This document shows positions 3-9,272 of a DNA stretch of 11,631 nt, one piece after another; position 1 is the first letter of the stretch, and each line of letters opens with the position of its first letter. The stretch is from Caryophanales bacterium UBA6768. Its GTDB lineage: Bacteria; Bacillota; Bacilli; Bacillales_D; Amphibacillaceae. A program made the translations under genes and the position numbers. Under the pieces are notes generated by a model. That model was not told the origin of the DNA, made no database searches, and saw only the letters and a program-made list of their open reading frames with translations. The DNA lies in NCBI GenBank assembly GCA_002453315.1, contig DKGO01000094.1, forward strand, positions 1 to 11,631, read 5' to 3'.

Positions 3-389
3 ATACCTGGCATTGGACCGGTGTTTACAGCGGGAATTATCGCTGAGATTGGCCAAATAGAACGTTTTGATAACGAAGAGAAAATTGCCAAGTATGCTGG
101 GCTTTATTGGCGAAAACACCAATCCGGTCGCTTTACCGCAGATGTCACATCCTTATCACGTAATGGAAACCAGTATCTCCGGTATTACCTAGTTGAAGCC
201 GCCAATTCGGTAAGAAGGCAGATCCCTGAATATCGTGATTATTACGCGAAAAAGTACCAAGAAGTACCAAAGCATCAACATAAAAGAGCCCTCGTCTTAA
301 CAGCAAGAAAATTTGTGCGTTTGGTGGATGCGCTACTACGCAAAAACCAAATTTACACGCCCAAAGGGGGCGTCATAAATGAAGCATAA
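3..389 (+). CDS. IS110-family transposase, C-terminal part (5' truncated by window edge)
   Basis: The frame is open from base 3 to the TAA at 387-389, so the gene enters from the left edge and only its last 128 codons are seen. The first visible residues, IPGIGPV, are the hallmark opening of the C-terminal transposase_20 domain (PF02371) of the IS110/IS116/IS902 family. Further motifs follow in the family order: AEIGQIERF, KYAGL, a Ser-Gly pair (Ser codon 123-125) that corresponds to the proposed nucleophile serine, and RNGNQYLRYYL plus a VEAAN segment. IS110 enzymes are DEDD/serine recombinases that move the element with a bridge RNA encoded in a non-coding end. The visible part has no frameshift or stop, so the element may be intact. 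The GTG at 21 is an internal codon and not a start. Confidence 0.93.
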   Translation: MPGIGPVFTAGIIAEIGQIERFDNEEKIAKYAGLYWRKHQSGRFTADVTSLSRNGNQYLRYYLVEAANSVRRQIPEYRDYYAKKYQEVPKHQHKRALVLTARKFVRLVDALLRKNQIYTPKGGVINEA

Positions 390-614
390 ATAGCTTCAAA
401 ATTCCTTTAATACATACCAGTAATTACCATTTATTTACTGGTTTAGCTTAGAGTTGCCTTTTTTAAGCAAATTGTACCTTGATAATCAAATAATTATTTA
501 TTTTTCCCTTGACATATTACCGCAGGTCTTTAACTGACTTTTCAAATTAAAAATTCATCATATACATATGTAGTTTACTTGAACTATATATATTTTTCAT
601 GGAATCTGTTTTGA
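390..614. other. Intergenic: IS110 right flank and convergent gap before DUF3397
   Basis: This is very AT-rich DNA between the convergent transposase and DUF3397 gene ends. It should contain the right end of the IS element, but IS110 elements lack long terminal inverted repeats, so I cannot place the boundary. It holds a perfect 8-bp inverted repeat (416-442, listed separately) and a weak 5-bp TAGTT/AACTA hairpin at 571-586 next to a T-rich run on the plus strand. No coding sequence or convincing terminator is visible. Confidence 0.6.
416..442. repeat. 8-bp inverted repeat downstream of the transposase
   Basis: ACCAGTAA (416-423) and TTACTGGT (435-442) are exact reverse complements separated by 11 bases, 27 bases after the transposase stop. 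The plus strand has a T-run only from about 468, so a classical terminator is doubtful. It could be structure in the non-coding right end of the IS element. Confidence 0.45.
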
Positions 615-1007
615 TTAAGCAAAAAATTGATAAATAAATATAAATGCACGATATAAAATTAATATCATATAACTTATTGAGAATATTAGAAAACTCAAAC
701 GAAACAATAATCTAATCCCGTCATATAGAATAATTTCTGTTTGGGAATATCTTTGCCGAATTAAAATAATTGCCAATAGAAAGAGATGGAAAATAATGAT
801 GTAACTCATCGTTTTTAGCTGGAATAAACTATCTACAAGCAGAATCGAGGCAACCACGTAAAACAGTGCCGTACTTTGCACAGACAGATGGATAGCCTTC
901 CATTTACTTTTAGTCAATTTATACATAATGAAATAGATGACATAAGTAAGAAAAACAGGGACTACGATCAAGATTGTTTCTTTTTGCCCAATGACCCAGT
1001 CTATCAT
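615..1007 (-). CDS. DUF3397 family membrane protein
   Basis: A 130-residue, strongly hydrophobic protein with about four predicted membrane helices (roughly residues 10-28, 38-58, 66-84 and 100-125) and short basic loops such as KLTKSKWK. Size, topology and position immediately after panE match the uncharacterised DUF3397 family of Bacillales, which in related genomes usually sits between panE and bshC near the cell-wall/division cluster. No biochemical role is established. The ATG overlaps the panE stop codon (ATGA, 1004-1007), and an AGAGAGG ribosome site lies in the end of panE, so the two genes are co-transcribed and probably translationally coupled. On the downstream side no bshC follows; an IS110 element lies there instead. 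Confidence 0.8.
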   Translation of the reverse strand: MIDWVIGQKETILIVVPVFLTYVIYFIMYKLTKSKWKAIHLSVQSTALFYVVASILLVDSLFQLKTMSYIIIFHLFLLAIILIRQRYSQTEIILYDGIRLLFRLSFLIFSISYMILILYRAFIFIYQFFA

Positions 1008-1873
1008 TCGTTATACCTCTCTTCTAACGCCAATATTGCATCGTGTACAAATTGTGTATATGGTAACGACTGATTACTCTGACGTAATAGATAACCGGAT
1101 ATCGCATCTATTTCCGTTTTCCGATGGTGTTTAATATCTGATCTCATCGATGACGTGTTTTTTTCTGTGTTTTTGGCAATTTGGGTAATCTTTTTCCAAT
1201 AATGATCGGGGTCGAATTTTAAAGTGTTTGCAGTTTCTTGACACAGTTTTCTAGCTATAAGACGAATATATGTATTATGATTGATTTCCCCGTTTTCTAC
1301 ATCGAATAGGGCAGTTAATGGATTAATAATTGCATTTACGATTAACTTTTCCTTTAATAATAACTCCCAATCACTTGCAAAATAAAATGGGAAATGTTGT
1401 TGATGCAATTGTTTTACGATTAATTGTGCTGTCGCTTCACTTCCTGTCAAAGGGGCAATTGTGATTTTACCTTTACCAAGCTGGATCACTTCATTATCTT
1501 GCTTTCTTTTAGCCCCATGTTCGACGATTCCTATGAAGGAATGATTTCCATCTTGCATCATGGACAAATGACCCATACCATTTTGTAAGTAGATAATCGG
1601 TTTATTTTTGGGAAAATAATTAACTACGTCATGAAGTTGGTACTGCTTTACAGAAACAAACCATATATCTTGTTCAGATATATTATCTAAATATGCTATC
1701 TCGATATTATGTGTTTGGAATTGTTCATTTTCATCAAATAATGTTATCCCATACTGACTTATTCGACGATATTGAGATTCTCTTTTAACATATATTGTCA
1801 CATGATGGTCATGATTTAAATAACTGCTTATTAATAGTCCAATGGCTCCCCCACCAATTATTCCAATTTTCAT
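1004..1873 (-). CDS. panE: 2-dehydropantoate 2-reductase (ketopantoate reductase)
   Basis: This cytoplasmic enzyme reduces 2-dehydropantoate to pantoate with NADPH in pantothenate (vitamin B5) and CoA synthesis. The 289-residue length is normal for the family. It has an N-terminal Rossmann nucleotide site (GGGAIGLL, residues 7-14) and a QNGMG loop (97-101). The ApbA C-terminal domain contains KLIVNAIINPLTAL, whose Lys176, Asn180 and Asn184 align with the E. coli PanE catalytic and substrate residues. It also has SSMRSDIKHHRKTEIDAISG (241-260), with the substrate-binding serine and Glu254 in place. No key residue is missing. The ribosome site is weak (GGTGTGA before the ATG). It is first in an operon with the DUF3397 gene, with a candidate promoter at 1931-1959. 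Some Bacillales carry more than one PanE-like protein, so the exact substrate is inferred. Confidence 0.92.
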   Translation of the reverse strand: MKIGIIGGGAIGLLISSYLNHDHHVTIYVKRESQYRRISQYGITLFDENEQFQTHNIEIAYLDNISEQDIWFVSVKQYQLHDVVNYFPKNKPIIYLQNGMGHLSMMQDGNHSFIGIVEHGAKRKQDNEVIQLGKGKITIAPLTGSEATAQLIVKQLHQQHFPFYFASDWELLLKEKLIVNAIINPLTALFDVENGEINHNTYIRLIARKLCQETANTLKFDPDHYWKKITQIAKNTEKNTSSMRSDIKHHRKTEIDAISGYLLRQSNQSLPYTQFVHDAILALEERYNE

Positions 1874-1930
1874 GATGTCACACCGTCAATTCATTTTGTA
1901 TTTTTCAACATGTTAATTTCATTGTTATCT

Positions 1931-1959
1931 ATTTTATAATATTCTTGTATTGTATTCAA
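1931..1959 (-). promoter_or_regulatory. Candidate sigma-A promoter for panE-DUF3397
   Basis: On the minus strand, TTGAAT (-35, 1954-1959) and TAAAAT (-10, 1931-1936) are separated by exactly 17 bases, 58 bases upstream of the panE ATG. Each box has about two mismatches from consensus in AT-rich DNA, so the call is moderate. Confidence 0.45.
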
Positions 1960-1961
1960 TC

Positions 1962-1997
1962 AAACCTTATGGCTTAAACCTTAATATTACAAGGTTT
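1962..1997. repeat. Direct and inverted AAACCTT repeats upstream of the panE promoter
   Basis: AAACCTT occurs at 1962-1968 and again at 1976-1982. The second copy is followed after 8 bases by its exact reverse complement AAGGTTT at 1991-1997. The cluster begins directly beside the proposed -35 box of panE, where an activator or repressor could bind. It has no T-run on either side, so it does not look like a terminator. A chance hairpin is possible. Confidence 0.35.
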
Positions 1998-2181
1998 TGT
2001 CCCCAATAACACTAATAAATATTTGAATAAGACTGATTTAAGGAAATTTTCTTTAAAGAAATCAGCAAAGGAAAATTTCATAAAAAGAAAATTAAAAATT
2101 GTGGTATTTTCTTTATCAATGTTTAATATGTTCATTGGCTTTTTATCGCATCTAAAACTAATTCTTTCACGTTCATGGACT
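1998..2181. other. Intergenic DNA between the surface-protein terminator and panE
   Basis: Together with the sites listed beside it, this makes about 400 gene-free bases upstream of panE. It is AT-rich, with one further 9-bp inverted repeat (GAAATTTTC at 2043-2051, GAAAATTTC at 2071-2079, 19-base loop). I see no reading frame, RNA gene or riboswitch-like conserved core in it. Confidence 0.5.
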
Positions 2182-2184
2182 AGT

Positions 2185-2244
2185 AATAAAAAAACCTAAA
2201 CGTTCCAGCTATTCTATCGTTTGAATACGGGATACGTTTAGGTT
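2185..2244 (-). terminator. Intrinsic terminator of the surface-protein gene
   Basis: An exact 11-bp inverted repeat (AACCTAAACGT 2193-2203, ACGTTTAGGTT 2234-2244) lies 25 bases beyond the stop codon. On the minus strand the stem is followed directly by a run of seven T residues (A-run 2188-2194). The 30-base loop is longer than usual but contains a small CGT/ACG inner hairpin (2218-2229). The T-run polarity assigns it to the leftward surface-protein transcript. Confidence 0.85.
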
Positions 2245-2269
2245 GATGATGTTGTGTTTTGTCTTTATT

Positions 2270-5200
2270 TTAGCGATGTTCTTCCTGGTGTTTTCCTTTT
2301 CGATAAATGAACCATAGGGTGCTTCCTAGTATCATTAGTATAATACCAGCTATTAACCAATTGTATTGGTTTGTTGCTGTAACTGGTAAATTACTTGGTT
2401 TTTTCTCTATTTCTTCTTCCATTTCTTTTTCCGCAAACACAGCATACATAGAAAAGTCAGAAACTGTTGCAGTGATTTTATTCCCATCCAATGTACCGCC
2501 AACTCGTTCCCATGTCCCTTGAAAATGATACAAGGCTGGATTGTCGACAGTTTCATCTACACCCATGGTCAGGATAAAGTCCCCGTGATAATCTTTCTGT
2601 CCGTCTGGATAAGTGAAGATAAAATCATACACTTCCCCTGCCAGTTGTAAATTTTCCGGTTCTTCCACTTGAACCTTAACTACTTGTAATTTCGTGCCAG
2701 CTGGTAAATCACTCGGTAATTGAATCGTTGTGTCTGTATTTTTAATTTTTACGAGCGAACCTGTATCAATTGGAACAGCTTGTTCATCAAGTTCAAGTGT
2801 ATCGGTTTTTGCAACAACATACACTTTTCGAACGACCTCAACTGCTTCATTTCCTTCATTGTCAGTGACATTATAACGAATTTCATAGACTCCTAGTTTA
2901 CTTGTATCTACCTTACCCGTGATGGTGATTTGTTCACTAATATCCCCGTCCACGTTATCTTCCGCTGTTGCCCCTAATTCATCATATTTCATTCCAACTT
3001 CAATGATTAATGGATTATTACCGATTAATGTAATTAATGGTTGTTCTGCGTCGACAACATATACCGTTCTAGTGACTGTAGTCGTATTTCCCATATGGTC
3101 AGTTGCTTTATAAGTTATGTTATATGTGCCAACTGACTTTGAATCGACACCACCAATTTTGTTTACGATTACATTATCATCAAAATTATCTTCTACCTTA
3201 TAGCCTGGGTCTGTGAATTTATTACCGTGTAAAAGGGTTAACGGATTTTGCCCACGTAGTGTCAATGTAGGAGCAGTACGGTCTATTTGAACAATACTTT
3301 TTGCGGTTTTGCTAATATTCCCAGCTTTATCTATAGTTCGAGCATAGATCGTTGTTTTTCCTTCCCAGCTGATTGCAAATGATTTATCGTACGTTAGCCA
3401 CGTGCCATCCTTACCGATTCTATATTCTGTTTTCTTAACTCCACTACCACCTGTATCTGTTCCATGTGTGATGGTAATTGTCTGATTGTTCGATTGCCAC
3501 CCGTCAGAACCATTAATGATTGGCGAGGATGGTACAGTTTTATCGATATTAGTAATCTTTATCGTTTTTATAATTTCATTCCCCGCATTATCTTCCACTT
3601 CAAATGTGTACGTTCCATTCTCGGGAACAGAAAACGTCATTTCAATAGCCTCTTCCCAATCACCATTTTTTTCCCGAATTTGTTTTATACCACTATGCTT
3701 ATCGGTTGCTGTAGCCGTAATGATAACATCTTGATTAGTAGCATCCTCCGTACTGGCTGACAGGATGAGTGTCGGTGCATCGTTATCTAACTTAAAGTCT
3801 TTAGATGTTGCCTCCGTTGTTATACCTGACTTACTAGTTGCTTTAATGTGTAAATAATAATCCCCTGTTGCATTTTTAATTGATAAAATATCGTTACTTT
3901 GAAAATCCGTCCACGTTCCCGATGTTGGGAAGTTTTTACTTTCTGTCCACTGATATTGTAATTTATCTAAATTATCCCTAAACGCCTCGACTTCCACTTT
4001 TGTACTATGAGTTTGTGCATAATTGTTGTTTCCGTCCGTTTCAAAATTAATTTCAGGAGAACCTATTATTCTAAAAATCAAATTTTTCGGTTTCAGATAA
4101 GTCTTATTAAAATTATCTGCATCCTTCTGTGTACGTGCGTAGCCTTTGGTCGCTTGGCTTTGCAAGAACATACTAGTCATAGTCGTTACATTACTCGTAT
4201 CAAATGAACTTAAATCGAGCAAGGTTGCTTTACTTCTCTGGAACATTCTACCCATATTCGTTACATTACTTGTATCAAAAGAACTTACATCGAGAGTAAT
4301 GGCTTCGCTCTCCAAAAACATGTGCATCATATCCGTTACCTTACTCGTATTAAAATTATTTAAATCGAGCGAAGTTGCTCGGCTCGCCTGGAACATGCTA
4401 ACCATAGCCGTTACCTTACTCGTATTAAAATTAGTTAAATCGAGCGAAGTTGCTCGACTACTTTGGAACATAGCCATCATATTCGTTACGTTGCTCGTAT
4501 CAAATGAACTCATATCGAGTTCGGTTGCATAGCTCCCTAAAAACATTGATCCCATATCCGTTACATTTTTTGTATCAAACGAACTTAAATCTAACTCGAT
4601 TGCTTCGCTGCTATGAAACATCCCATGCATATCCTCTACAATGCCCGTGTCAAATGAACTTAAATCTAGTAAGGTCGCTTGGTTGTTATAAAACATATAG
4701 CTCATATCTATTACACTTTTCGTATCAAGAAACCTTAAATCAAGTGTAGTTGCCTTGCTGTCTTTAAACATATTATTCATATCCGTTACATTTTTATTCG
4801 TACTTTTTACACCTTTGACACTTGTATTTTGAAACATGGCTTGATACGATGTTATATTTTGGCCCTTAATTGTGTGCGGTATTTCAACATATTTATCACT
4901 ACCAATATAACGAAAACCACCGTTTGAAACGCCCTGAAAATCACCATCCGTTGCAAGGACATAATCATCAGCATCTCTAACCTTAAATATCAACTTAGTT
5001 GAAACACCATTAAACCTATCTGCATCTGCTTGTGTTTGTGCATAGCCCATTGTAGCTTGGCTACTAGAAAACATATTATCCATATTTGTGACATTTCTCG
5101 TATCAAACGAACTTAAATCGAGTGTGGTCGATTGGCTGTCTGCAAACATATAACTCATATCCGTGACATTTTTATTCGTACTCTTTACACCTTTCACACT

Positions 5201-6229
5201 TGTATTTCGAAACATGCCTGTATACGATGTGATATTTTTTCCTTTAATTGTGTGTGGTATTTCAATATATTCATCATTACCAATATACCAAAAATCACCG
5301 TTAGTAACGCCTTCAAAATCATCATCCGTTGCAAGGACATAACCATCTCTAACCTTAAATACTAACTGACTTGGCTTAAAAGGGCTAACATTAAACCTAT
5401 CTGCATCTGCTTGTGTTCGTGCATAGCCCATTGTAGCTTGGCTATCAGTAAACATATAAGTCATATTTGTGACACTTCTCGTATCAAACGAACTTAAATC
5501 GAGTGTGGTCGCTCGACTACCCTGAAACATACCATTCATTTGCTTAACATTACTCGTATCAAACGAACTTAAATCGAGCGTGGTGGCATGACTATCCTGA
5601 AACATATAATCCATTAACATGACATTGCTCGTATCAAACGAACTTAAATTGAGTGTTCTGGCGCTGCTGCTGTGAAACATAAGACTCATATCCGTTACGT
5701 TGCTCGTATCAAATGAACTTAAGTCGAGTGTGGTGGCTCTACTGTTTTGAAACATACTTTTCATATTCGTAACCTTGCTCGTATCAAACGAACTTAAATC
5801 GAGTGTGGTCGCCAGGCTAAAGTTAAACATAAAGTTCATATTCGTTACATTACTTGTATCAAATGAACTCAAATCGAGTGAAGTGGAATTGTTATGGTAA
5901 AACATTAAGCTCATATCCGTTACATTTTTATTCGTACTCTTTACACCTTTGACATTATTGGGTTTTGCTCCATGTATAAAGGAAAACATTTCTTTATAAG
6001 ACGTAACTGCTACTCCTTTAATCGTATGCGGGATTTCTACATATTCATCATTACCAATATAGCGAAAACCACCGTTATACGAGCCCTCAAAATCATCATC
6101 CGTTGCAAGGACATAGACTGGTTCATCATTTTCCGCTTTAACCAATTTTCCACTATCTGACATTGCCATACCTAACAAAAACAAACCAATCATCAGTAAA
6201 AATATCACTCTATTACTTTTAAGCCCCAT
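2270..6229 (-). CDS. Large BspA/DUF285 repeat surface protein with Ig-like domains and LPVTA wall anchor
   Basis: A predicted cell-wall-anchored surface protein, probably an adhesin or ligand-binding protein. I start at ATG 6227-6229 (1319 aa), where GGAGGG sits 7 bases upstream; the frame extends to a TTG at 6283, but that codon lies beside the proposed -10. The signal peptide is residues 1-32, with likely cleavage after VKA. Three BspA-type modules (about 39-295, 297-419, 423-722) each begin YVLATD, continue to EIPHTIKG and VKGVKSTNKN, and carry 7, 2 and 9 repeats of 25 aa (pattern NVTxMxxMFxxSxATxLDLSSFDTS, PF03382-like). Then come three Ig-like domains (about 725-986), two DUF5011-like domains (987-1060, 1061-1139), a C-terminal domain (1142-1267), LPVTA (1281-1285), a membrane helix (1291-1309) and a basic tail. 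No sortase gene is in the window. The gene lies downstream of the sensor kinase and has its own putative regulated promoter. Its ligand is unknown. Confidence 0.9.
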   Translation of the reverse strand: MGLKSNRVIFLLMIGLFLLGMAMSDSGKLVKAENDEPVYVLATDDDFEGSYNGGFRYIGNDEYVEIPHTIKGVAVTSYKEMFSFIHGAKPNNVKGVKSTNKNVTDMSLMFYHNNSTSLDLSSFDTSNVTNMNFMFNFSLATTLDLSSFDTSKVTNMKSMFQNSRATTLDLSSFDTSNVTDMSLMFHSSSARTLNLSSFDTSNVMLMDYMFQDSHATTLDLSSFDTSNVKQMNGMFQGSRATTLDLSSFDTRSVTNMTYMFTDSQATMGYARTQADADRFNVSPFKPSQLVFKVRDGYVLATDDDFEGVTNGDFWYIGNDEYIEIPHTIKGKNITSYTGMFRNTSVKGVKSTNKNVTDMSYMFADSQSTTLDLSSFDTRNVTNMDNMFSSSQATMGYAQTQADADRFNGVSTKLIFKVRDADDYVLATDGDFQGVSNGGFRYIGSDKYVEIPHTIKGQNITSYQAMFQNTSVKGVKSTNKNVTDMNNMFKDSKATTLDLRFLDTKSVIDMSYMFYNNQATLLDLSSFDTGIVEDMHGMFHSSEAIELDLSSFDTKNVTDMGSMFLGSYATELDMSSFDTSNVTNMMAMFQSSRATSLDLTNFNTSKVTAMVSMFQASRATSLDLNNFNTSKVTDMMHMFLESEAITLDVSSFDTSNVTNMGRMFQRSKATLLDLSSFDTSNVTTMTSMFLQSQATKGYARTQKDADNFNKTYLKPKNLIFRIIGSPEINFETDGNNNYAQTHSTKVEVEAFRDNLDKLQYQWTESKNFPTSGTWTDFQSNDILSIKNATGDYYLHIKATSKSGITTEATSKDFKLDNDAPTLILSASTEDATNQDVIITATATDKHSGIKQIREKNGDWEEAIEMTFSVPENGTYTFEVEDNAGNEIIKTIKITNIDKTVPSSPIINGSDGWQSNNQTITITHGTDTGGSGVKKTEYRIGKDGTWLTYDKSFAISWEGKTTIYARTIDKAGNISKTAKSIVQIDRTAPTLTLRGQNPLTLLHGNKFTDPGYKVEDNFDDNVIVNKIGGVDSKSVGTYNITYKATDHMGNTTTVTRTVYVVDAEQPLITLIGNNPLIIEVGMKYDELGATAEDNVDGDISEQITITGKVDTSKLGVYEIRYNVTDNEGNEAVEVVRKVYVVAKTDTLELDEQAVPIDTGSLVKIKNTDTTIQLPSDLPAGTKLQVVKVQVEEPENLQLAGEVYDFIFTYPDGQKDYHGDFILTMGVDETVDNPALYHFQGTWERVGGTLDGNKITATVSDFSMYAVFAEKEMEEEIEKKPSNLPVTATNQYNWLIAGIILMILGSTLWFIYRKGKHQEEHR
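2375..2389 (-). other. Sortase sorting motif LPVTA (non-canonical LPxTG)
   Basis: The codons read Leu-Pro-Val-Thr-Ala, followed by a 19-residue hydrophobic segment and the tail RKGKHQEEHR. This tripartite layout is diagnostic of a sortase substrate, but the fifth residue is Ala instead of Gly. LPNTA is known as the substrate motif of the Bacillus anthracis class D sortase (SrtC), so this protein may use a class D rather than a class A enzyme. Confidence 0.8.
4064..6115 (-). repeat. Three duplicated modules with 18 units of a 75-bp (25-aa) coding repeat
   Basis: The modules lie at about 5345-6115 (7 units), 4973-5341 (2 units) and 4064-4963 (9 units). Each has an N-terminal lead of about 65 residues, the 25-aa units and a closing segment ending ATxGYAxTQxDADxFN and then a FKVRD-like strand. 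DNA identity is high in places: the plus-strand string CAAACGAACTTAAATCGAGT recurs in several units. The closing segments near 5010 and 5393 differ at only a few positions over about 50 bases, which indicates recent duplication. Unit number differs sharply between modules, as expected when recombination or slippage adds and removes units. Confidence 0.9.
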
Positions 6230-6236
6230 TCTCTTT

Positions 6237-6242
6237 CCCTCC
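6237..6242 (-). promoter_or_regulatory. Ribosome binding site fixing the surface-protein start
   Basis: The minus strand reads GGAGGG, 7 bases before the ATG at 6227-6229. This is near-perfect complementarity to 16S rRNA. It selects this start over the upstream in-frame TTG at 6281-6283, which lacks a site and would overlap the promoter. Confidence 0.88.
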
Positions 6243-6273
6243 ACTATTACCCAATGAACTTGCAATTTACACC

Positions 6274-6332
6274 ATTTTATCAATGGAAGGTCAAGTAAAG
6301 GTCAAGTGGAGGTAAAGTTTTGTTAAAGTTTG
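6274..6332 (-). promoter_or_regulatory. Surface-protein promoter with four 11-bp tandem repeats (probable PhoB/PhoP-class operator)
   Basis: Read on the plus strand, four units stand head to tail: GGTCAAGTAAA (6289-6299), GGTCAAGTGGA (6300-6310), GGTAAAGTTTT (6311-6321) and GTTAAAGTTTG (6322-6332). The last covers the kinase stop codon. On the transcribed (minus) strand the cores read ACTTTAAC, ACTTTACC, ACTTGACC and ACTTGACC, with exact 11-bp spacing. After 9 more bases comes TAAAAT (6274-6279), a good -10 box. There is no separate -35 at the right distance from it. OmpR/PhoB-family regulators bind 11-bp direct repeats in this position; B. subtilis PhoP boxes are TTAACA-like. The likely binder is the regulator at 8556. 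A TTGACC unit used as a -35 with a TGTAAA -10, 17 bases on, is an alternative reading. Confidence 0.75.
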
Positions 6333-8410
6333 TCCAAATCTGTCACTTTTGCGTAGACAGGCAATGAAATATAAAAAATACTGCCATTATTCTCCTTACT
6401 TTCCGCCCAAATATCTCCGTCATGAATATGCATTATCTCCTTAGAAATCGCCAATCCCAAACCACGACTGCCATCATCATTATGAGTGTTAGATGAGCCT
6501 TGATACAGACGTTTAAAAATATGGGGCAAGTCATGTGCAGTGATTCCCGGTCCACTATCAATGACCTGTATAACCATGTCACCGATTTTACGACTAGATC
6601 CCACATTAGAAATTGGAATCCAGTCCACAATCATCTCAACCCTTTTTACTTCTTCTGAATATTTCATCGCATTATACATAATATTCATAAAAACTTGATC
6701 AATCCGATCCCGGTCCATAATGACAATAGCATTAGAAGGCAATTCACCCGCCCAATCCGACCGGTTATGCCAAAGTAATTCATATCCATTTGCTTCCAAA
6801 ACGCCTTGAAAATAAGTGAAAACTTCTTGCGGGAAATGATTTGCGGAAAAAGTTTGCAACTCCATTTTTATTTTCCTTAATTCTAATTCAGATAAAGTAG
6901 ATAAATCCTTAATTAAACGCTTTAATACTCGAGATTTATTATAAACGATGTGCCAATATTTCCGTTCATCCGATATTTTCTCATCAATAATTGCTTCTGC
7001 ATATCCTTCAATTAATGTCATTGGAGTACTTAATTCGTGTGAAATATCCGAAATTAATGCTTTACGTGATTGCTCTACTTGTTGTAATCTAGTATTTACT
7101 TGTTTTAATTCTTTTGTTCTCTCTTCTACTTTTTCCTCTAACGTTAAGTTCAAGCGTTTCAATTTACTAGATAAATTTTCAATTGACCGGAAAGCTTCGG
7201 AATATTTGATCCCGTGAACAAATGTTTGACTGACTAGAAAAATCAAAAATCCTTTCGTTGCAATCTGTCCAGTATTGATAAAATTCAAATAAAACAATGC
7301 ATCATTTAAAGAAGCAATCATAAAAACCAGTAAACTAAGGAAATTAAATCGTGATGCTGGACGTTGTCGAAGCATGGCAATTGTAAATAGATAAACTAAA
7401 TAAAGAACAGTTGGCAACACAAGCAATTGATAGACCATCAGAAAACGTGTGTAAAATAATGCAGGAGTTAACATCACGATACTTATAAAAGAAAATGAAA
7501 CGATATCGACACCAATTTGAATTTTTGACCAAGCATCTTTTGGATAAAGGTGTTGAATATAACGAATAAACAAAGGGACTCCAATAATGAAAGTGAGATA
7601 TTCAAGTTTTACCTGAGTTTCCCAAGGGAACATTGGAAAAACACGGATAAAAAAAGTCTCTCCCATTAATAAAGTCCGAACTGCAAATAGTAAAGTAAAT
7701 AGACCTAAATAAAATGCAGAACGCTGGGATTTACGCAGGAAATAAATAATTAATAAATAGATCCCCATCATGATAAGTGCCCCAGCAACGAGCAACTGCA
7801 AAGCAATTTTCTTTTCACTTACTAATGAAATAGCATCTGCATTCCCAAAATAAATGGTATCCCAAAGCCCACCTTTTCGTTGAGAAAAATTAGAAACAGG
7901 GATGATTAGTTCCACCTTAGTTGACTTGGGAACAAAATAAGCCGTTCGTGCATAGTTGGCTGGAACCATCTCTTTTTCATTTACACCAATGATTCCATTT
8001 GACATTTTTTTCTCCCCATCAATCCACACTTCATAGGCTGTAGCAGCATTAGGGATATATAAGCCGAGCGTTTCCCCGACATACTTTTCCTGTAACCGAA
8101 TCGTTAATTGATACGTTCCATAGCCTGTATTTAAACGAAAATAATCTTGTTTTCCCCACGAGCCTGGTACTTTACTATAACGGCTCTTTTTTAAGTTAGA
8201 CTGTATAGGAGGAAAGGTTGACTCATAAAGCAGCCATTCACCATTTAGTGAAATAATGTTATTTTCTGCTAACGACACCTCTTTTAAATCTATGACACCT
8301 TTATTTGCTAGATGAGTAGAATTTACTTTATTCATAAATAAAACATTATAAAGCAATGCCGAAATCATAATAAAACAAATGGCTAGAATGACATACCAGG
8401 CTTTATGCAT
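6323..8410 (-). CDS. 7TMR-DISM sensor histidine kinase
   Basis: A membrane sensor kinase of 695 residues. An N-terminal membrane anchor (about 7-26) is followed by an extracellular beta-rich domain (about 50-195, with LNGEWLLY, VPGSWG and GYGTYQL) that resembles galactose-binding-like/7TMR-DISMED2 ectodomains, so a carbohydrate or envelope ligand is plausible. Seven further helices (about 202-398) form the 7TMR-DISM membrane region. A coiled coil (about 405-450, LEEKVEERTKELKQV) leads into HisKA with the phospho-acceptor His458 in ISHELSTP. The HATPase_c domain has an N box (NIMYNAMKYS, 576-585), G1 (DSGPGI, 618-623), F box (IFKRLYQG) and G2 (GSRGLGLAIS, 647-656). All catalytic boxes are intact. 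GAGGAG lies 8 bases before the ATG. It is divergent from its presumed partner regulator, and the surface-protein gene begins 93 bases downstream with no terminator between. Confidence 0.93.
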   Translation of the reverse strand: MHKAWYVILAICFIMISALLYNVLFMNKVNSTHLANKGVIDLKEVSLAENNIISLNGEWLLYESTFPPIQSNLKKSRYSKVPGSWGKQDYFRLNTGYGTYQLTIRLQEKYVGETLGLYIPNAATAYEVWIDGEKKMSNGIIGVNEKEMVPANYARTAYFVPKSTKVELIIPVSNFSQRKGGLWDTIYFGNADAISLVSEKKIALQLLVAGALIMMGIYLLIIYFLRKSQRSAFYLGLFTLLFAVRTLLMGETFFIRVFPMFPWETQVKLEYLTFIIGVPLFIRYIQHLYPKDAWSKIQIGVDIVSFSFISIVMLTPALFYTRFLMVYQLLVLPTVLYLVYLFTIAMLRQRPASRFNFLSLLVFMIASLNDALFYLNFINTGQIATKGFLIFLVSQTFVHGIKYSEAFRSIENLSSKLKRLNLTLEEKVEERTKELKQVNTRLQQVEQSRKALISDISHELSTPMTLIEGYAEAIIDEKISDERKYWHIVYNKSRVLKRLIKDLSTLSELELRKIKMELQTFSANHFPQEVFTYFQGVLEANGYELLWHNRSDWAGELPSNAIVIMDRDRIDQVFMNIMYNAMKYSEEVKRVEMIVDWIPISNVGSSRKIGDMVIQVIDSGPGITAHDLPHIFKRLYQGSSNTHNDDGSRGLGLAISKEIMHIHDGDIWAESKENNGSIFYISLPVYAKVTDLDKL

Positions 8411-8555: not shown

Positions 8556-9272
8556 ATGGATAAGAAGATTTTAATTGTCGAGGATGATGATGAAATAAGA
8601 GAAATGATTCGTCTTTATTTATTAGAAGAGGGCTTCAAAGTAGTCGAAACCCTTTCTGGTCTTTCTGCCCCAAACCTAGTAAAATCTGAAAATCCCGACT
8701 TGGTCTTATTAGATATCCTGCTTCCAGGTTACGACGGAATAGAAGTATGTGAGGAAATACGGAAATTTTCAACTGTTCCTATTATCTTTTTAAGTAGTAA
8801 AGCGGAAGAAGTTGATAAAATCGTCGGACTAACAATTGGTGCAGATGACTATTTAACGAAACCATTTAGCCCCAGGGAGTTAGTCGCCCGAATTCGCTCA
8901 TTGCTTAGGCGGCAAAAATATGGAAATGAATTAAGTATGGCAACTAATAGTAAAGATGTGCTAGAATATACAAATTTAAAAATTAATTTACTAAATTACA
9001 CTGTAGAACTTTTTGGAGAACCAATTGAGCTATCCTCTAAGGAATTCAGTTTATTAGCCTTTTTAGCCAGTCATCCGGGACAGGTTTTTAATACTGAACA
9101 ATTATTTGAAACCATCTGGGGTGAACCTAGTTTGACAAATACAAGAACCGTTCTTGTCCATATTAGCAGTCTTCGGAAAAAAATTGAGACAGACCCATCT
9201 AATCCCGACTATATTCTAACCGTCTGGGGAATTGGCTATAAATTTAATGGGAGACACTCAGTGCTCTATTAA
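8556..9272 (+). CDS. OmpR/PhoB-family response regulator
   Basis: A cytoplasmic DNA-binding regulator of 238 residues, the normal length for the subfamily. The receiver domain (1-120) has the acidic pocket ED-D (9-11), the phospho-acceptor Asp53 in LLDILLPGYDG, Ser80 at the switch Thr/Ser position and Lys102 in LTKPF. The winged-helix Trans_reg_C domain (about 135-232) ends with the usual RTVLVHISSLRKKIE recognition helix and the IWGIGYKF-like wing (VWGIGYKF). AGGGGG lies 6 bases before the ATG. It is divergent from the 7TMR-DISM kinase, which is the obvious phospho-donor. Regulators of this family dimerise head to tail on 11-bp direct repeats, which matches the repeat array before the surface-protein gene. 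I assign no gene symbol because many paralogues look alike. Confidence 0.94.
   Translation: MDKKILIVEDDDEIREMIRLYLLEEGFKVVETLSGLSAPNLVKSENPDLVLLDILLPGYDGIEVCEEIRKFSTVPIIFLSSKAEEVDKIVGLTIGADDYLTKPFSPRELVARIRSLLRRQKYGNELSMATNSKDVLEYTNLKINLLNYTVELFGEPIELSSKEFSLLAFLASHPGQVFNTEQLFETIWGEPSLTNTRTVLVHISSLRKKIETDPSNPDYILTVWGIGYKFNGRHSVLY

Follow-up and report, generated by a model that had tools for sequence, protein, structure and literature searches.

The window, that is, the whole stretch of 11,631 nucleotides that was analysed, carries a gene for a large surface protein and, upstream of it on the same strand, a gene for a sensor histidine kinase, itself divergent from a response regulator gene. 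A short array of direct repeats lies between the first two genes and reaches into the 3' end of the kinase gene. The features considered here are the following:

2270..6229, minus strand: surface protein with a signal-peptide-like start, DUF285/PARCEL repeats, Ig-like domains and an LPxTATN sorting signal
6229..6242, minus strand: Shine-Dalgarno sequence GGAGG (6242-6238) and the first base of the ATG (6229)
6274..6282, minus strand: extended -10, TGATAAAAT, with TG one base upstream of TAAAAT
6289..6296, minus strand: repeat unit 1 (proximal), ACTTGACC, 9 bases before the -10
6300..6307, minus strand: repeat unit 2, ACTTGACC
6311..6318, minus strand: repeat unit 3, ACTTTACC
6322..6329, minus strand: repeat unit 4 (distal), ACTTTAAC, holding the kinase stop codon
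6323..8410, minus strand: 7TMR-DISM sensor histidine kinase, with a PF07695 7TM region, HisKA and HATPase_c
8556..9272, plus strand: OmpR/PhoB-family response regulator, divergent from the kinase and proposed binder of the array

The surface protein belongs to the PARCEL/DUF285 proteins, with 12 stretches matching TIGR02167 (269.1 bits) and a DUF285 (PF03382) score of 317.2 bits. Its PARCEL repeats are encoded by 75-bp tandem arrays at positions 4166-4591 and 5441-5926, in agreement with the 25-residue (75-bp) tandem repeats reported for PARCEL surface proteins in PMC2996958, the abstract of which holds nothing on their transcriptional control. A similarity search with this protein matched 7004 proteins. 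As for the kinase, the joint presence of PF07695, HisKA and HATPase_c makes it a 7TMR-DISM histidine kinase. The regulator carries both PF00072 (Response_reg, 2.7e-30) and PF00486 (Trans_reg_C, 2.4e-28), which bears out its earlier assignment to the OmpR/PhoB family, and the closest solved structures are those of RegX3, MtrA, BaeR and KdpE. It was rejected as a WalR (YycF) equivalog, with 233.5 bits against the NCBIfam NF040534 cut-off of 340. Among the best 120 of its 306 matches, the top relative with a genus name comes from Virgibacillus sp. W0181 (58% identity), which makes a Bacillaceae-like host likely. Two database proteins, P0113 and P0233, are identical to the window regulator and surface protein, respectively, and the same organism is probably represented by a longer contig as well, of 77,718 bases. 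At the left end of the window (3-389), an IS110-type transposase gene is represented by its 3' part.

The longest open reading frame of the surface protein opens with a TTG at 6283, but its translation likely starts at the ATG at 6229, behind the GGAGG. With a transcript start expected near 6267, the leader would be about 38 bases long. No -35-like hexamer could be read 16-18 bases from the -10 of this promoter, and a sigma-70 promoter scan of positions 6150-6450 found nothing on the minus strand and a single match (9/12) on the other one. An extended -10 without a -35, together with an array that ends 9 bases before it, indicates that the repeats fill the place of the -35 box, as the sequence-only reading had proposed: the position is occupied by non-random 11-bp direct repeats. 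A role for this region at the RNA level was discarded, since no Rfam family reached its gathering score in the window and the folded transcript region was unremarkable (z -1.57).

Read on the minus strand from 6329 to 6274, towards the surface-protein gene, the array and its promoter are composed of ACTTTAAC-AAA-ACTTTACC-TCC-ACTTGACC-TTT-ACTTGACC-TTCCATTGA-TAAAAT, where TTCCATTGA represents the 9 nt between the proximal unit and TAAAAT. On the plus strand, the units at 6289, 6300, 6311 and 6322 read GGTCAAGT, GGTCAAGT, GGTAAAGT and GTTAAAGT, or G[GT]T[CA]AAGT as a whole, and match their consensus at 8, 8, 7 and 6 of 8 positions. Direct re-reading thus confirmed the exact 11-bp spacing and the match counts given before, the location of TAAAAT (6274-6279) at a distance of nine bases from the closest core, and the overlap with the kinase gene, whose stop codon (6323-6325) sits within unit 4. 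Such an arrangement of a short core repeated directly with a period of 10-11 bp is that of OmpR/PhoB-type operators, here with four units and a period of 11 bp. A degenerate fifth unit, suggested at 6278-6288, did not hold: in register it reads CATTGATA, which agrees with ACTTGACC at only 4/8 positions, and the extended -10, on which the matching TTGA falls, accounts for it better. No further copy of the operator was found in the window beyond this single array, the intergenic region between kinase and regulator included.

How far such an array could arise by chance was evaluated in several ways. The four 8-base cores match their own consensus at 29/32 positions, a score reached by none of 2000 dinucleotide shuffles of positions 6201-6400 at period 11, the best of which gave 26/32; for 200 shuffles of the whole window, all periods from 8 to 20 taken together, the best score was 28/32. 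Other loci (L006-L080, L104-L123 and L151-L170), 2,015,555 bases in all, contained no four-unit array of period 11 scoring at least 28/32 with a low-complexity filter on, while periods 9, 10, 12 and 15 yielded 5, 1, 11 and 4 such arrays, respectively, and periods 13 and 14 none. The cores also agree more than their spacers (29/32 vs. 7/12; Fisher p = 0.025), so a young tandem duplication is probably not at their origin.

These figures bear on the simplest alternative, according to which the repeats arose by chance or by slipped tandem duplication and have no regulatory role, the surface gene being read through from the kinase. The kinase and surface genes do lie on one strand, 93 bases apart (counted to the ATG at 6229), and no terminator-like site was found between them, so that read-through from the kinase may well exist beside the array promoter. 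Nevertheless, with a score of 29/32 attained neither by the shuffles nor by any period-11 array in the 2.0 Mb of other loci, with spacers less alike than cores and with an exact placement before a -10, an array devoid of function appears very improbable.

The design principle of the array is already established, and its own feature is its lettering. The Pho-box consensus of B. subtilis PhoP consists of TTWACA-like units; on the minus strand, the window units read TTGACC, TTGACC, TTTACC and TTTAAC, none of which is TTWACA. PHO boxes in general are described as 11-nt direct repeats, bound head-to-tail, in which seven positions are conserved and four less so (PMC4415409). The conserved motif is CTGTCAT for E. 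coli PhoB and GTTCACC for Streptomyces coelicolor PhoP. The 11-nt direct repeats of these two regulators and of B. subtilis PhoP are shared with the window, whereas the motifs differ and no phosphate link was seen in the window. Both four-unit PHO-box arrays and their overlap with the -35 have been described (PMC7866108).

The kinase of the SaeRS system is of another type than the one found here, but its regulator offers a second parallel. In Staphylococcus aureus, SaeR binds GTTAAN6GTTAA, in which TTAA is needed, and controls surface proteins among other targets (PMC5083920). The window has in common with SaeRS a wHTH regulator, direct repeats with an 11-bp period, the form of the core (G[GT]T[CA]A-N6 on the plus strand) and a probable surface-protein target. 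However, GTTAA is found in unit 4 alone, with GGTCA, GGTCA and GGTAA in the other three; the window prefers GGTCAAGT and has four units; and its array seems to face the gene the other way round from most SaeR sites, to judge by a remark on exceptions in that paper. Concerning pneumococci, PMC5956151 reports that TCS08 regulates the neighbouring adhesin PavB and that a SaeR-like repeat lies upstream of pavB. There, as in the window, a two-component operon stands beside a surface adhesin gene preceded by a direct repeat, but the pair is SaeRS-like and the repeat is an imperfect TTTAAN7TTTAA, not a four-unit array. The architecture of the window resembles SaeRS, the Pho boxes and pneumococcal TCS08/pavB. 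The suggestion that the array represents a distinct, undescribed operator is weakened: the lettering is special, but the plus-strand form G(G/T)T(C/A)A-N6 comes close to SaeR GTTAA-N6 (PMC5083920) and to the GTTCACC of the 11-nt repeats of S. coelicolor PhoP (PMC4415409).

In another reading, the array would be the operator of a different OmpR-family regulator encoded elsewhere, such as PhoP of the phosphate response or WalR, with a wider regulon and an incidental adjacent pair. The minus-strand units TTGACC, TTTACC and TTTAAC do resemble the Pho-box type TTWACA, although the G at position 3 and the final C misfit it. Moreover, a phosphate-related domain is absent from the Pfam hits of the window surface protein. 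This reading is considered unlikely.

A third alternative keeps the neighbouring regulator as the binder of the array but reverses its effect, the bound protein blocking the extended -10 promoter and so repressing it. An extended -10 can function without a -35, and 9 bases separate the proximal unit from the -10, both of which are compatible with repression; against it, PhoB-type regulators that occupy the -35 position typically activate. At glpQ1 and glpQ2 of S. coelicolor, the sites for PhoP overlap the -35 (PMC7866108), which likewise argues against repression, a reading that we hold to be quite improbable. 

Relatives of the kinase and their neighbourhoods were then compared. Close relatives of the kinase (P0002-P0005) share 88, 60, 59 and 58% identity with that of the window. 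Among the 80 loci kept from a first contig scan, full-length kinases did not exceed 36% identity, and a scan of viral sequences gave 8 weak kinase-domain matches. Relative loci were taken from several sources: L001-L005 (34-36% identity) from the 80 kept loci, L006 and L007 (29% and 27%, near full-length) being left out; 20 of 23 places in 397 genomes of an order and 20 of 28 in 398 genomes of a class; and finally L182 and L184, for a total of 46 distinct loci (L154 repeats L004). In 28 of these 46 loci a regulator gene was found (blastp, 1e-10) no more than two frames away from the kinase. A large surface-type protein lies beside the kinase in eight of the 46 (L001, L003, L104, L106, L119, L120, L121 and L169), which counts in favour of the operator reading; the neighbours at L104 and L119 were judged by eye, since split or spurious frames lie between, and the one at L121 from its location and size. 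Nine chosen neighbours were compared with Pfam, two of which (L002 and L184) are not counted among the eight, and other large ones (e.g. at L109, L110 and L168) were left out; in the seven surface-type neighbours so scanned, the domains are SLH, LPXTG-anchor, LRR_5 or LTD/phosphoesterase.

At the three loci L119-L121, the surface gene beside the kinase has a TTWACA-N5-like array before a -10, and the two surface proteins scanned from this group, those of L119 and L120, carry a phosphoesterase domain, which would suit a target of PhoP. With such a domain in the adjacent surface protein, PhoP is a real alternative binder at L119-L121, and these arrays are ambiguous. In L184, which belongs to the same genus, the kinase-regulator pair is kept, the surface gene is absent with a subtilase gene in its stead, and no TTWACA-N5-like array was seen.

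Three further loci display repeats or gene arrangements of their own. At L104 (G015, 329-5685), the relative kinase is split by an internal stop and stands beside a regulator frame and a BspA-type LRR_5 surface protein; the frame following the regulator frame resembles, by eye, a LuxR/NarL-type output domain, and GTTAACC and GTTAATC occur 10 bp apart upstream of the LRR_5 surface-protein gene. At position 8889 of L161, just upstream of the kinase gene, stand two 17-bp units (GTCAAT[CT]TATAATCCAC), with the beginning of a third. At position 14550 of L183, TTTACATAAAC-TTTACATTACA repeats before a gene that resembles pstB by eye probably form an ordinary Pho box.

Searches for the window motif itself gave a negative picture of its spread. 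In the 397 genomes of the order, a three-unit ACTTKACC pattern (up to two mismatches) had 2 matches vs. 7 for the backwards control. A two-unit pattern had 34 matches vs. 102 for the control in seven chosen genomes, and was below the control in six of the seven. In genome G867, a small assembly of 2.2 Mb with a regulator 59% identical to that of the window, the count was 7 vs. 6 for the control, and all four of the seven matches that were inspected fell inside predicted open frames. Given the 2 vs. 7 in the 397 genomes and the lack of excess in G867, the window motif is no common operator. Period-11 arrays of three units occurred in 12 of 193 intergenic regions near the kinase family, the one of the window included, vs. 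45 of 852 in control loci (L009-L080); the 193 regions come from 45 loci, namely the window, L001-L004, L104-L123 and L151-L170, where L004 and L154 are one place. At other periods the counts ranged from 0 to 5 near the kinase family and from 8 to 26 in the control loci, as compared with 12 and 45 at period 11. As the control loci were alike in this respect, enrichment of period 11 near the kinase family was dropped as evidence. By eye, no 11-bp repeat block was seen upstream of four MRGILRFG-type kinases, nor in three divergent kinase-regulator pairs (which align poorly), nor at the regulators of L119-L121 and L184.

A different result was obtained upstream of the kinase in a Paenibacillus-like genus, where close kinases (59-100% identity to that of L165) are present in 9 of 75 genomes. 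In seven of the nine orthologues, those at 65-100% identity, AGTTTAAGTTTTGTTTAAGT stands before the kinase gene. It is composed of two GTTTAAGT units with an 11-bp period and, when the 220 bases before each kinase start were aligned, the motif not being used, it came out at 20 bases as the longest invariant run among the seven, vs. 8 for the ribosome-binding block and 7 for the -10. In a separate alignment its invariance is there by construction, the regions having been cut around AGTTTAAGTTTTGTTTAAGT. The two most distant orthologues (59%) lack it and, with both included, no invariant run exceeds 3 bases. The seven genomes do not amount to seven independent witnesses either, since L217/L218 and L220/L221 are close species. 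In 2.66 Mb, GKTNAAGT-N3-GKTNAAGT matched only this Paenibacillus-like site (three genomes, six overlapping loci) and the window, and eight other spacings of the GKTNAAGT pair gave 0 or 1 match. 

The unit GTTTAAGT agrees with the window consensus at 6/8 positions, a likeness noticed after the fact, for which a rough calculation by hand, with registers and strands taken into account, gives a chance of about one in ten. It backs the operator reading of the window array and is no proof of it; still, the independent occurrence, in 7 of 9 orthologues from remote relatives, of an 11-bp repeat built from a like unit before the kinase gene supports the original proposal of an 11-bp operator. The form of the window units also resembles this footprint more closely than the Pho-box type, which speaks against a binder encoded elsewhere.

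Taken as a whole, the array is probably an operator for a response regulator of the OmpR/PhoB family, most likely the one encoded at 8556-9272, and would activate the surface gene. The repeats with their spacing, position and improbability, the families of the regulator and the kinase and the footprint in relatives are shown; that a regulator binds here, that it is this one and that it activates rather than represses is what we infer. The 7TMR-DISM kinase would phosphorylate the regulator, which would then stack head-to-tail on the 11-bp repeats as two dimers over the four units. Thus bound, it may supply the contact of the missing -35 and recruit RNA polymerase to TGATAAAAT, the extended -10, whereby the wall-anchored PARCEL/DUF285 surface protein would be switched on, with a transcript starting at about 6267.

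Full-text searches of one open-access library returned no paper on Gram-positive targets of 7TMR-DISM kinases; the papers naming 7TMR-DISM among those listed by a looser search appear, by their titles and the start of their abstracts, to concern other bacteria or outputs. Should the reading of the window array hold, the 7TMR-DISM kinase family would gain a testable operator and would be tied to the control of neighbouring surface proteins. A broader idea, put forward tentatively and with less confidence than the reading of the window array, is that 7TMR-DISM kinase/OmpR regulator pairs of Bacilli may share an operator of their own, G-N-T-N-A-A-G-T every 11 bp, through which the pairs of Paenibacillus-like genomes would regulate themselves and which, as a four-unit substitute of the -35, would drive the PARCEL neighbour in the window. 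If this were true, the shared operator would represent a dedicated sensing switch for surface proteins that have spread horizontally.
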